This document shows positions 3,131 through 59,558 of a stretch of 64,000 bases of DNA, one piece after another. The number at the start of each line of letters is the position of its first letter. Positions within the stretch are counted from its first letter, which is position 1. The notes beneath the pieces are model-generated. The model was given only the letters and a program-made list of their open reading frames with translations, was not told the origin of the DNA and did no database searches. This DNA is from Pacificoceanicola onchidii (GTDB taxonomy: Bacteria; Pseudomonadota; Alphaproteobacteria; Rhodobacterales; Rhodobacteraceae). A program made the translations under genes and the position numbers. Location: positions 248,001 through 312,000 of the forward strand of contig NZ_SRXY01000001.1 of NCBI RefSeq assembly GCF_004804335.1. The letters are read 5' to 3'.

Positions 3131-3253
3131 GGGCGTCCTGTCTCGGGAGTCAGGCCTAAGGTATGCTCAGAGCGCGGCGGCGTCCATGGGGGAGTGACGG
3201 CGAGGCGGCGTTGACCTGGCGGGGCGGTTTGCCCCCCTCAGGCGCGGAACAAA

Positions 3254-3351
3254 GGCCGCAGGCCGCCGCTCCTATCGACGGGCCGTCCGCACGGCACGTC
3301 GATAGGAGCGGCTTGTGCTCTAACCCTGAGGTCCCGGATCAAGTCCGGGAC
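3254..3351 (-). repeat. Dispersed stem-loop element, copy A (short, loop deleted)
   Basis: The shortest of five related elements in this window, in reverse orientation to the others. GCCGCTCCTATCGACGGGCC at 3264-3283 pairs with its near-exact complement ending at 3312, leaving only a few bases of loop; the roughly 70-bp loop of the longer copies is missing. It is flanked by the small hairpin ggccgcaggcc (3254-3264) on one side and by the block ctaaccctgag plus the palindrome at 3331-3351 on the other, as in copies B and D. The sixth base of the arm is T here where copy B has G, and the opposite arm carries the matching change. Confidence 0.85.
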
Positions 3352-3385
3352 GGGCGCGCGCTCCATGCCCCCGAAAAACAACCGC

Positions 3386-6307: not shown

Positions 6308-6766
6308 GATCCGGGTTCCTCTGTCTCAGTGGCCCGCGATCCGCCGGTTCGGGCAAGAGAAAACCGAATATGGTCGGTCGTCAGTCTGAGGCAGGTGCGC
6401 GCGCTTTCCGCGGATCAGGTGGCCCCCTGCGAGCGGGCCTTGGGGCAAGCGTAGCGGATTGGGCAGCGCGTGGCTAGGGGGCGGTTTCTGGGCTGAAGGG
6501 GACGTTGAGCCGACCTCGTCCCGGACTTGATCCGGGACCTCAGGGTTAGAGCTCATGCCGCGCCTATCGACGGGCCGTGGCATGGCGATGTAACCGTTGA
6601 TCCCCTCGATTTATCCCGGCCACTGGTGCGCTAGGCCGGTGTAGGTCGATACGACAACCCAATCGCCGTGCCGTGCGGACGGCCCGTCGATAGGCGCGGC
6701 GGCCTGCGGCCTTGATTCCGAGCCTGTGGTGAGATGAACGGCCGTTTCAAGCCAGAAATCCGCGCC
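6308..6766. other. Intergenic stretch holding repeat copy B
   Basis: This 459-bp gap separates the start of the ankyrin gene from the end of the next minus-strand gene. Apart from stem-loop element copy B I see no gene. The ankyrin gene promoter should lie in the first ~200 bp (6308-6517); the remainder after 6723 is a short AT-poor tail. Confidence 0.6.
6518..6723 (+). repeat. Dispersed stem-loop element, copy B
   Basis: Full-length copy. Left part: the palindrome gtcccggacttgatccggga at 6518-6538 (its last base follows at 6538) and the block ctcagggttagagc. Left arm 6558-6589, right arm 6662-6702. The arms are complementary over 22 bp without mismatch (through GCCTATCGACGGGCCGT), followed by a 6-base insertion in the right arm and another 11 pairs with one mismatch. 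The loop of about 72 bases holds tgatcccctcgatttatc (6598-6615) and gcgctaggccggtgt, both conserved in the other long copies. A short hairpin ggcc-tgc-ggcc and the block ttgattccg close the element at the right. Confidence 0.9.
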
Positions 6767-12391: not shown

Positions 12392-12419
12392 CCCCAGGAT
12401 ATTTTTGGCACAAAGAAAC
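12392..12419 (+). repeat. 28-bp intergenic repeat (GGTATTTTTGGCCCAAAGAA family), copy 1
   Basis: The core ggatatttttggcacaaaga, extended left by cccca, follows a GC-rich hairpin block (ggggcttcgcccc). The same core recurs at 12548-12572 (reverse), 20321, 44130 and 57611 (reverse). It forms an inverted pair with the 12548 copy about 130 bp away. Confidence 0.8.
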
Positions 12420-12438
12420 ACGGTGTTAACCTTAATCG

Positions 12439-12538: not shown

Positions 12539-12547
12539 ATCGCCCTT

Positions 12548-12572
12548 GTTTCTTTGTGCCAGAAATATCCCC
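12548..12572 (-). repeat. 28-bp intergenic repeat, copy 2 (reverse)
   Basis: The reverse complement reads ggatatttctggcacaaaga followed by aac, one mismatch from copy 1. Together copies 1 and 2 bracket the possible small RNA as inverted repeats. Confidence 0.8.
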
Positions 12573-20320: not shown

Positions 20321-20348
20321 CCCCGAGGTATTTTTGGCCCAAAGAAGC
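20321..20348 (+). repeat. 28-bp intergenic repeat, copy 3
   Basis: Core ggtatttttggcccaaagaa preceded by ccccga and by a GC hairpin (ccggggctctgccccgg). It sits between the MalG-like gene and the ATPase gene, inside the operon, so it is transcribed and could affect mRNA stability or polarity. Confidence 0.85.
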
Positions 20349-44102: not shown

Positions 44103-44157
44103 GGCGCTGCCCCGCCGCCTTCGGCGACTCCCCGAGGTATTTTGGGCCCAAAGAAAC
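44103..44157 (+). repeat. 28-bp intergenic repeat with GC hairpin, copy 4
   Basis: Core ccccgaggtattttgggccc followed by aaagaaac (44130-44157), after the hairpins ggggcgctgcccc and gccgccttcggcg. Essentially the same 55-bp block is found in reverse at 57611-57675. Confidence 0.85.
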
Positions 44158-44290
44158 CGGGGGCGTGCCTCTGCGCGGCGCGCTTCACAAAGCCGTGTGG
44201 TCGGTGCCCGCGGGATTTTATTGCATCCGTGTTACACTGGTGCCTTACTGCTCGTTCAGGGACTCACACTTCGCTTGAAAGGATTTCTCC

Positions 44291-46265: not shown

Positions 46266-46284
46266 CCCCGGACCTGATCCGGGG
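46266..46284. repeat. CCCCGGACCTGATCCGGGG palindrome
   Basis: A 19-bp near-perfect palindrome just after cpdB; member of the palindrome family also found at 3331, 6518, 23452, 50681 and 62972. Confidence 0.7.
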
Positions 46285-48031: not shown

Positions 48032-48130
48032 AAGGGAACCGGCAGAATGTTCTTCTTATGTTCTAGTGCGGTTGGGCGGGGGAGTCGAGTCCGGGCGGGG
48101 TGACGGGGGTCGTTGCGCGCACCCGGGCGC

Positions 48131-48399
48131 GGACCTGATCCGGGACCTCCTGGAAGAGTACAAGTCGCGCCATTGACGGGCCCTGGCATGGCGATCCGAT
48201 CTCTGTTCCCCTCGATTTATCCCTGTCACTGGCGCGCTAGGCTGGTGTGGTGCCCAGCGCCAAACCAATCGCCGTGCCGTCACGCCAAAGGCGTGCCGAG
48301 AGCATGTCGGCGCACCTTTGGTGCGACGGGACGGCCCGTCATGTCCGAGACATGCTTCCAGCATGATGGCGCGGCGGCCTGCGGCCTTGATTCCGCGCA
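48131..48399 (+). repeat. Dispersed stem-loop element, copy C (long form)
   Basis: Left arm about 48166-48195 (cgcgccattgacgggccc, then ggcatggcgat); right arm 48268-48377 interrupted by extra hairpins, cacgcc-aaa-ggcgtg, cgcacc-ttt-ggtgcg and catgtc-cga-gacatg. Loop keeps ttcccctcgatttatcc and gcgctaggctggtgt. Ends with ggcctgcggccttgattccg and cgc like copy B. Confidence 0.88.
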
Positions 48400-50339: not shown

Positions 50340-51189
50340 CGCGCCGCGATGACCTCCCACAAATCGTCAGTTCCAAAGCAATAGCGAAGCCAGCTTTGGG
50401 GGGCAAGTGTTTGCGAGCGTTGAAGAAACGCTTGACCGCCGGGCTTATCTCGCAAAGGGATTAGGCTGTGGAACATCGTTCATCGTTGGCTCGATGTTCA
50501 AAATTCCTGAACCAGACCAAAGGGCCACGTCGCGCAATTCTGCCCCGAATGCCAAGCATCTCTGACCCAGACCGGCTATTCCGCGGGCTAGCTGGCGTGG
50601 TTTGCATGCCGGACGAAGCGGGCGTTGGCAGTGAGCGATCCCGATGTGGAATGGCCTTAAGCAGTCATTGAGTTCACCCCGTCCCGGACTTGATCCGGGG
50701 CCTCATGGCTAGAGCACAAGCCGCGTCTATTGACGGGCCGTGGCATGGCGATCCCACCACTGATCCCCTTGATTTATATCAGAAACTGGTGCGCTAGCTA
50801 GACATTGCGCCCAGCACCAACCCAATCGCCGTGCCGCGGGGACGGCCCGTCGATGGCGCGGCGCCCTTCGGGCTTGATTCCGCGCTTATGGTGAGGGGAA
50901 TGACTACTCAAGGCTCTTTGAGCCGGATCCTCCCGAACCCAAACTCGGCACTCTGGGCTCTTCCCCCTTTAGCCGCGTTCTGCGTCAAGTTCTGGATGCG
51001 CTATTTCTCAGATTTTGAACCCGTTTTGACGCAATAGTCGAATTCGCCAGACGTTCCACAGCCCCCTCTGCCTCCCCCCATCCGTAAGCCCACGCCGCCT
51101 AGGGTCCGGTTTTCCCGCGTTGACAGACGCGGGGGTGCGCCGTGATCATGTATGACATTACGTCAACCGATCTGCCCGGGGGGGACACC
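50340..51189. other. Long intergenic region with repeat copy D
   Basis: An 850-bp gap between two divergent genes. No gene seen. It contains a small hairpin at 50471-50499 (gaacatcg/cgatgttc), stem-loop copy D, and probably the promoters of the lipoprotein and protease genes. The 300 bp after copy D are AT-richer than average and may hold the latter promoter. Confidence 0.6.
50681..50885 (+). repeat. Dispersed stem-loop element, copy D
   Basis: Same layout as copy B: palindrome gtcccggacttgatccgggg (50681-50700), block ctcatggctagagc, left arm 50720-50752, loop with tgatccccttgatttat and gcgctagct, right arm 50825-50862, then a hairpin gccc-ttc-gggc and ttgattccgcgc. The end hairpin differs from copies B and C by a changed base pair in which both sides changed. 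Confidence 0.88.
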
Positions 51190-57605: not shown

Positions 57606-57610
57606 TCCCG

Positions 57611-57675
57611 GTTTCTTTGGGCCACTAAATACCTCGGGGAGTCGCGGCCCAACGGGCCGCGGCGGGGCAGCGCCC
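57611..57675 (-). repeat. 28-bp intergenic repeat with GC hairpin, copy 5 (reverse)
   Basis: Reverse complement of the block at 44103-44157: the core gtttctttgggccactaaat with acctcgggg (57611-57639) and then GC-rich hairpin sequence to about 57675. It lies within the amino-acid transporter operon. Confidence 0.82.
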
Positions 57676-59302: not shown

Positions 59303-59519
59303 GCACAAGCCGCGCCATTGACGGGCCGTGGTGCGGCGATCTTCCCTCTGATCCCCTCGATTTATCGTAGCAACCAGCGCGCTAGGCCGGTGTAGCTCGA
59401 TACGACCACCCAATCGCCGTGCCGCCACGCCAGAGGCGTACCGAGATCATGTCGGCGCACCTTTGGTGCGACGGGACGGCCCGTCGATGGCGCGGCGCCC
59501 TTCGGGCTTGATTCCGCGC
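59303..59519 (+). repeat. Dispersed stem-loop element, copy E (long form)
   Basis: Left arm 59309-59340 (gccgcgccattgacgggccg), loop with tgatcccctcgatttatc and gcgctaggccggtgtag, right arm 59413-59496 interrupted by cacgccagaggcgt and cgcacctttggtgcg hairpins as in copy C, then gcccttcgggc and ttgattccgcgc. Lacks the left palindrome of copies A, B and D. Lies between convergent genes. Confidence 0.88.
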
Positions 59520-59558
59520 AAAGGTGCCTAGAACTCTGCTGAAAAGCTCTATCCCAAT

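Follow-up and report, generated by a model that had tools for sequence, protein, structure and literature searches.

A dispersed family of folded non-coding elements, apparently undescribed, in Rhodobacteraceae genomes, with a 5' arm and a tail matched to the same 3' arm

Five dispersed pieces in a 64-kb stretch of the Pacificoceanicola onchidii genome (contig NZ_SRXY01000001.1, positions 248,001 to 312,000; hereafter the window, with coordinates counted from its first letter) are members of an apparently undescribed family of folded elements with a core of approximately 170 nt. The reading favoured here, at a probability of roughly one half, is that of a mobile, non-autonomous, non-coding element resembling REP and ERIC repeats, whose fold is used in spreading. 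The claim is kept modest because a mover is missing, an insertion signature is absent and the strand signal is weak. About one in three of the genera sampled from a major bacterial family carry the element, for which no matching Rfam family was found, and its many copies form a rich natural data set for distinguishing repair that corrects palindromes from selection acting on a folded strand.

Copies within the window

The original prediction described five intergenic stem-loop elements, A to E, sharing long inverted arms. All five exist, as seen by sequence inspection and by automatic repeat finding, which recovers pieces of them, and their non-coding, intergenic character was borne out by a codon-usage gene call. 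The proposed common architecture is complete in copies B and D, with copy A internally deleted and on the minus strand and copies C and E carrying extra modules. The spans first given located the elements, with those of A, B, C and D also taking in a separate REP-like hairpin outside the core, and the tail sequence is corrected here, copy B reading TTGATTCCGAGC and copy A TTTGTTCCGCGC.

The core of copy B (6554..6724, plus strand; 196.2 bits with model R1) comprises a 5' arm, a bulged stem, an inner domain with TTTATC, a 3' arm, a small hairpin and a tail. On the basis of the fold and column pairing, the 5' strand of its long hairpin lies at 6557..6589, the outer part of which is sequence X, and the bulged 3' strand at 6662..6700, the outer part of which, X', can pair with either the 5' arm or the tail according to fold and covariation. 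The small hairpin GGCC-TGC-GGCC follows at 6701..6711 (with the stem GCCC..GGGC in other copies), and then the tail TTGATTCCGAGCC at 6712..6724, recognised as a competitor of the 5' arm from covariation between 3' arm and tail in 56 sequences. The whole core folded with z = -7.95 on the plus strand and z = -8.36 on the minus strand. Copy D (50717..50886, plus strand; 177.3 bits with the covariance model) is also complete and, by the gene calls, lies between divergently oriented genes. Copy C (48161..48399, plus strand; 95.6 bits) aligns with two inserted hairpin modules, one in the bulge and one in the 3' arm, and copy E (59306..59520, plus strand; 113.3 bits) has one in the bulge. In copy A (3241..3315, minus strand; R1 81.5 bits, E 8e-18) the inner domain has been lost and the arms rejoined as a shorter hairpin.

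The compensatory changes that drew attention to these elements are real, being visible in the window copies and tabulated for further copies: copy A has GCCGCTCC/GGAGCGGC in place of GCCGCGCC/GGCGCGGC, copies C, D and E have T-G in place of C-G, and the end hairpin of copies D and E reads GCCC-TTC-GGGC in place of GGCC-TGC-GGCC. Additions to that first description, set out below, are the inserted hairpin modules, subfamilies that differ in their arms and a tail that competes for pairing.

Anatomy of the core and its surroundings

Read from 5' to 3', the core begins with X (typically GCCGCGCC), a stem ATCGACGGGCCGT and a second stem GGNNCGGCGAT, which lead into an inner domain of approximately 75 nt. 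On the return side come the second stem's partner, a bulge of about six G-rich bases that is confined to the 3' side, and then the first stem's partner. X' (GGCGCGGC), a small hairpin that is usually GGCC-TNC-GGCC, and the tail TTGATTCCGCGCC, which repeats X, complete the core. Among 74 aligned copies, 58 had TGC, TTC, TAC or TCC as the loop of the small hairpin, the other strand reading GNA. Among 67 copies from other genera, the inner-domain motif TTTAT was kept in 65 and GCCA in 56.

A REP-like hairpin with the pattern CCGGACYTGATCCGG lies outside the core upstream of four window copies: A (3328..3354, minus strand, with CCGGACTTGATCCGG at 3334-3348), B (6517..6541, plus strand, CGTCCCGGACTTGATCCGGGACCTC, a separate module matching the pattern), C (48123..48149, plus strand, degenerate with one mismatch) and D (50680..50704, plus strand, a pattern match); copy E has none upstream. 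With up to two mismatches allowed, the pattern was matched seven times in the window where 0.48 matches were expected. A further REP-like hairpin, CCGGACCTGATCCGG at 46268-46282, is found without a core element. The REP-like stretch of one other locus of the genome (L022) has five matches in G001, the single other genome of the genus, in which no core match was found. The outer ends of the own-genome copies are weakly alike and weakly inverted. At one locus of another carrier (G010), 12 of 14 non-self matches touched the element and eight of these 12 spanned it entirely. None of the 12 began before position 1502 or extended past 1676, and none starts ahead of the core or continues more than 5 nt beyond it. 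Because similarity in G010 is confined to the core in this way, the features seen outside it in P. onchidii, namely the REP-like hairpin and the weak inversion of the outer ends, were probably added in this lineage.

Family size and distribution

Further copies beyond the window, one of the expectations raised by the original prediction, were found in both the same genome and its relatives. Covariance-model searches of the window and fetched loci gave 62 matches at E <= 1e-8, which correspond to 61 places in the 4.98-Mb genome as copy B was counted twice; five of these places fall in the window. A covariance model built from 30 copies gave 106 own-genome matches at E <= 0.01, many of which are opposite-strand shadows of the palindrome, a blastn search with copy B, in which 40 of 118 candidates were scored, gave at least 40 places at E <= 1e-45, and a relaxed tail pattern matched 66 times with no match for the reversed control.

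Model R1 matched 13 of 61 genomes, P. onchidii included, all 13 belonging to the same family, and none of the 24 genomes from other alphaproteobacterial families. In a same-family sample of 394 genomes (393 genera), 125 contained a match, which is probably a lower bound given the limit of seven scored candidates for each genome. The broader model R2, run on 385 genomes drawn from the whole class, with at least five of the same family among those listed, yielded two matching genomes, both from the same family. A 26-base tail pattern occurred in at least 113 stretches of named genomes, including Roseovarius, Sulfitobacter, Pseudaestuariivita, Salipiger, Roseinatronobacter and Shimia; the 80 listed names all belong to Rhodobacterales, a placement that was looked up for four of them. 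No core match was found in the congener G001 among the 46 and seven candidates scored. The element has thus been found so far within the Rhodobacteraceae in the wide sense (order Rhodobacterales).

There were no Rfam matches to the element in the window at the gathering score, and at E values of up to 5 there were five weak matches across seven loci, none of which covers the element; one of them (locus L118) stops 2 nt inside the element border. No description of the family was found among the papers listed by searches of the open full-text literature, where figures are not searchable, and four element strings of 13-19 letters were absent from the full texts searched. The Rhodobacterales motifs treated in passages of PMC8632094 and PMC2864571 are linked to cco genes, cysS or metK, and the present element differs from them in this.

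Covariation and the competing tail

In a model-fitted alignment of 74 copies, the covariation score of the main fold was 0.332, compared with 0.108 after shuffling and at most 0.062 when the pairing was slid. As such an alignment leans towards its model, the measurement was repeated on a sequence-only alignment of 56 copies (67 of the 74 rows passed a length and name filter, and 11 of these were omitted to thin repeated genomes), giving 0.296, with 0.094 after shuffling and no more than 0.056 on sliding. In this second alignment 94.8% of cells were paired and 185 cells were changed on both sides against 44.8 in shuffles, which take no account of relatedness or tree. The covariation test, made with pair counts against shuffles and slides in place of R-scape with a tree, was therefore passed, and together with the further copies it supports the proposed dispersed, structured family in which pairing is retained through changes on both arms. 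The weak inner helices of the covariance models were paired in 73-74% of cells and are not claimed as part of the fold.

Covariation was also present between the 3' arm and the tail. Across the 56 copies the pairing of tail with X' scored 0.150 compared with 0.055 shuffled and at most 0.084 slid (the slide comprising four pairs), with 96.8% of cells paired and 18 double-changed cells against 2.3 in shuffles. Of 368 position-by-copy cells, counted for Watson-Crick partners of X' only, both X and the tail could pair in 329, the tail alone in 24, X alone in 14 and neither in one. The common GCGCGG/CCGCGC was present in 53 of 74 copies; in a minority, GTGCC, GGACC, GGGTG or GGGCC replaces GCGCC in both X and the tail, with the complement in X'. 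With both showing covariation with the 3' arm, the 5' arm and the tail are competitors for it: X, X' and the tail are three strands kept matched though just two can pair simultaneously. The covarying pairs would fit a structured RNA as well as single-stranded DNA or repair, and do not separate these.

Inserted modules and other repeats

Short hairpin inserts occupy fixed positions in several copies: the stem has one of approximately 24 nt, the bulge one of approximately 50 nt and the 3' arm a third. They look like nested micro-elements. Such modules were seen within 48161-48399 and 59306-59520 of the window and also at loci L028, L072-L085, L139 and L221. The ~24-nt module is found in the 3' arm of some own-genome copies and as its exact reverse complement opposite, in the 5' arm, of others. 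A module resembling it occupies the equal position in another genome (G003), and one resembling the ~50-nt module is found in Pseudosulfitobacter in the opposite orientation.

In a further carrier (G019; loci L101-L108, L132 and L133), elements are often paired on the same strand approximately 240-300 bp apart, with the 5' arm degenerate and the 3' arm and tail retained. Two other repeats were observed in the window. A tandem pair of a 56-nt repeat with a palindromic CCGAAAACCGG..CACTTTTCGGAT motif, the two units 88% alike, lies at 767-878 and presumably resembles repeats in other alphaproteobacteria, and another dispersed repeat of approximately 30-40 nt (CCCCGAGGTATTTTTGGCCCAAAGAA) occurs in both orientations at 12392-12423, 12544-12570, 20321-20346, 44124-44162 and 57607-57645.

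Strand signal and palindrome repair

Mismatches in the stems were counted in 47 intact, distinct own-genome copies, taken from the 62 aligned matches. There were 101 G.T cells against four A.C cells, with 61 of the 101 stemming from two positions of the second stem; without these two positions the count was 40 against four. In the 56 diverse copies the corresponding counts were 69 against 16, and 38 against 15 without the two commonest positions. Mismatch types common to several own copies numbered eight G.T, no A.C and seven others, and those private to one copy five G.T, four A.C and nine others; the 8:0 split among shared types has a binomial p of 0.004, and its contrast with the private 5:4 a one-sided p of 0.053. 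When decayed copies were included (61 distinct rows), private types were six G.U against 10 A.C and shared types 16 against six. Such a contrast between shared and private mismatches would be expected if the fold mattered more in the spreading lineage than at each site. These counts suggest one-sided, single-strand folding of the element. Taken as decisive evidence of one-strand folding, the G.T excess is undercut by its concentration at two positions, by the loops, where C>T and A>G exceed the reverse changes 32 to 17 (the same direction as in stems, to a lesser degree), by the lack of a difference between paired and unpaired changes (p 0.74), and by folding energy, as the plus strand as RNA was the more stable in 21 of 47 own copies and in 27 of 71 copies in a set drawn mainly from other genera. 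Private substitutions fell at 18 in 70 stem sites against 50 in 99 loop sites, and this lower stem rate could mean selection at each copy.

Lagging-strand transposition was considered from the orientation of copies relative to replication. On the 3.56-Mb contig C3 of G010, 16 of 21 copies ran against the leading strand, with in-between places given the nearer side by eye, and nine of 12 did so where skew samples on both sides agreed, tandem copies not being independent. This candidate was dropped as unproven: the replichore-linked bias was not found in P. onchidii, where local skew gives 33 of 61, and the skew sampled in a third genome (G209) was too weak to judge by.

The main rival explanation, unlikely if still credible, is that the element is a DNA-level repeat of REP, BIME or ERIC type, a duplex or cruciform that is bound by host protein or simply tolerated, with arms matched by template switching during replication, such that the covariation would record repair. 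Its long, close arms are a classic substrate for template switching, the ~24-nt module occurs as exact reverse complements in opposite arms, and neither strand folds consistently better than the other. The title of PMC8794818 holds that template switching can create and maintain RNA hairpins, and the frequent placement in convergent gene pairs, at 27 of 61 loci, agrees with what PMC3733652 describes for REPs. Arm-to-arm switching is, however, said in PMC8604942 to invert the spacer as well, and here all 47 of 47 intact own copies have the inner domain in a single orientation with respect to the tail. This constancy, the covariation of the tail with the 3' arm although the tail lies outside the long palindrome, and the near-universal retention of the unpaired TTTAT motif argue against pure template switching, and the excess of G.T over A.C in both copy sets also stands against this explanation.

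Gene context

Context was assigned at 61 own-genome loci, comprising 57 of the 61 places and four fragments (L085-L088), with window copies A, C, D and E excluded. The commonest arrangement apart from the 28 co-directional loci was between converging genes (27), with four divergent, one inside a called gene and one undecided. Within co-directional pairs the element was antisense in 16 and sense in 12, so that there was no sense preference. In the window, copies A, C and E are in co-directional and copy D in divergent surroundings, and the element is antisense in B, C and E and sense in A. No neighbour family recurs, the most frequent reaching three of 121 in the own genome and three of 50 elsewhere (nearest protein pieces of at most 150 codons), and no transposase family was present among the 25 commonest neighbour families listed (of 140 in the own genome and of 67 elsewhere). 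On the grounds of non-recurring neighbours and absent sense preference, a gene-linked regulatory RNA was rejected.

More broadly, it seems quite improbable that the element acts in cis as a structured host RNA, transcribed from the upstream gene, which protects, processes or ends transcripts and in which the 5' arm and tail form a switch. An upstream gene does read into the plus strand at 39 of 61 own loci, two mutually exclusive pairings covary, and private changes are fewer in stems than in loops. Set against these are the near-even split of antisense and sense in co-directional pairs (16 to 12), the window orientations (three copies antisense, one sense and one between divergent genes), the changing neighbours, the lack of a T run after the small hairpin in the copies inspected, and a patchy presence with no copy found in the congener. 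A multi-copy family of trans-acting small RNA genes is the least probable account, since its one attraction, a stable fold containing a conserved unpaired motif, is offset by truncated and deleted copies, by the lack of an Rfam match at the gathering score, and by the absence, by eye, of any shared promoter-like stretch in the 25 nt, and up to 90 nt, inspected immediately ahead of the core in copies of other genera.

Mobility, plasmids and the search for a mover

With regard to mobility and REARRANGEMENT, the genes flanking copy C are adjacent in the congener G001, where they are approximately 76-80% identical, and the flanking alignments are separated there by a 30-bp gap compared with 317 bp in P. 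onchidii. This is the one empty site found in a relative; none was available in the congener at A, B, D, E or L022, as the regions are not syntenic. No target duplication was recognised by eye in the flanks inspected, among which there was no clean empty/full pair from near-identical strains.

Searching plasmid records with one copy as query gave matches in 94 of 72,556, of which 91 were from Pseudosulfitobacter and three from Salipiger; many of the 94 are near-duplicate plasmids, and at least 80% of the query was covered in two. The same query found no match in 50,697 phage records. In the plasmids of Pseudosulfitobacter strains H46 and TT37, which are approximately 97% identical, five of the seven junctions between blocks longer than 300 nt fall on elements, a count that leaves out the record origin and rests on this one plasmid pair, and two of the five change direction or position. 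Elements thus mark most block junctions in the one pair examined closely. Two plasmid subtypes differ in arm sequence and share the same layout: at the collinear sites S3 and S5 one subtype is found in H46 and the other, oppositely oriented, in TT37, and at a third site, S2, the plasmids share a subtype, with a deletion as the difference between them.

Y1 transposase (PF01797) had no match in the P. onchidii genome and was present in one of ten carrier genomes searched (G016). Mobilisation by a RAYT or Y1 enzyme was rejected on the lack of a match in the own genome, where such an enzyme may have been present earlier and then lost.

A possible explanation for the distribution and fold

The preferred reading, a non-autonomous element whose fold is used in spreading, could operate as follows. 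The replicating or transposing form would be a folded single strand in which the long bulged hairpin presents the conserved inner domain with its TTTAT and GCCA motifs. The 3' module of 3' arm, small hairpin and tail would switch between two states, the 3' arm pairing with the 5' arm in one and with the tail in the other. An enzyme acting in trans, which was not found here, would move the element into sites free of genes, most commonly into intervals where two genes converge. The reading draws on the observed dispersal and within-family distribution, the covariation of both alternative pairings, the one empty site, the differing subtypes at homologous sites and the block junctions that coincide with elements in one plasmid pair. 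We infer that the fold is needed for movement and that the movement is performed by such an enzyme, with single copies presumably having no duty at each site. If the mover were found, this could be a new non-autonomous mobile system built on a fold with two competing states.

A more specific version, a bacterial SINE-like element in which a promoterless structured RNA (or single-stranded DNA) is copied in trans and the tail, competing with the 5' arm, folds back on the 3' arm as a switch for self-priming or processing, is considered very unlikely. Were it true, the replication cycle would have left its record in the way the two arms and the tail covary, and to our knowledge this would be the first widespread, fold-dependent, non-autonomous element of such a design in a bacterial order.

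Comparison with known systems

The suggestion that the elements are MITEs or REP-like repeats describes their behaviour well and their dimensions less so, as the core is approximately 170 nt compared with 20-40 bp for a REP and no matching transposase was found. Classical MITEs are short, non-coding sequences with inverted arms and no transposase of their own, and have terminal inverted repeats and a target-site duplication. The present element is likewise short and non-coding with inverted arms; however, its 5' arm and tail repeat each other in direct orientation and are not terminal inverted repeats, inspection by eye revealed no target duplication, and no parent transposon came to light among the nearest neighbours. 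The ERIC/IRU, NEMIS/Correia and RIME families are intergenic elements of approximately 100-200 bp with many copies, long inverted arms and mosaic insertions. They probably differ from the present family in sequence and host range, and are not known to have a design in which a 5' arm, a 3' arm and a tail compete.

GTAG REPs and REPINs mobilised by RAYTs are similarly folded, dispersed and non-autonomous, and differ in their link to a Y1 transposase, which is without a match in P. onchidii and was seen in one of the ten carriers searched; nor was a GTAG tag noticed in the present element. The CGTC-tagged REPs of Di Nocera et al. 2013 (PMC3733652) are described as intergenic palindromes prevalent in alphaproteobacteria, without a dedicated transposase, that form single hairpins of 20-40 bp, with an unpaired CGTC tag at one end, downstream of genes at unidirectional or convergent intergenic places. 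The present core differs from these in its length of approximately 170 nt and its inner domain and tail, with the tag confined to the separate upstream hairpin, and a CGTC-like hairpin is also present in the congener, where the core was not found. The likeness to the CGTC REPs as described there lies in the preference of the element for convergent (27 of 61) and co-directional (28 of 61) places and in the hairpin preceding the cores of B and D, which has both the CGTC start and such a palindrome.
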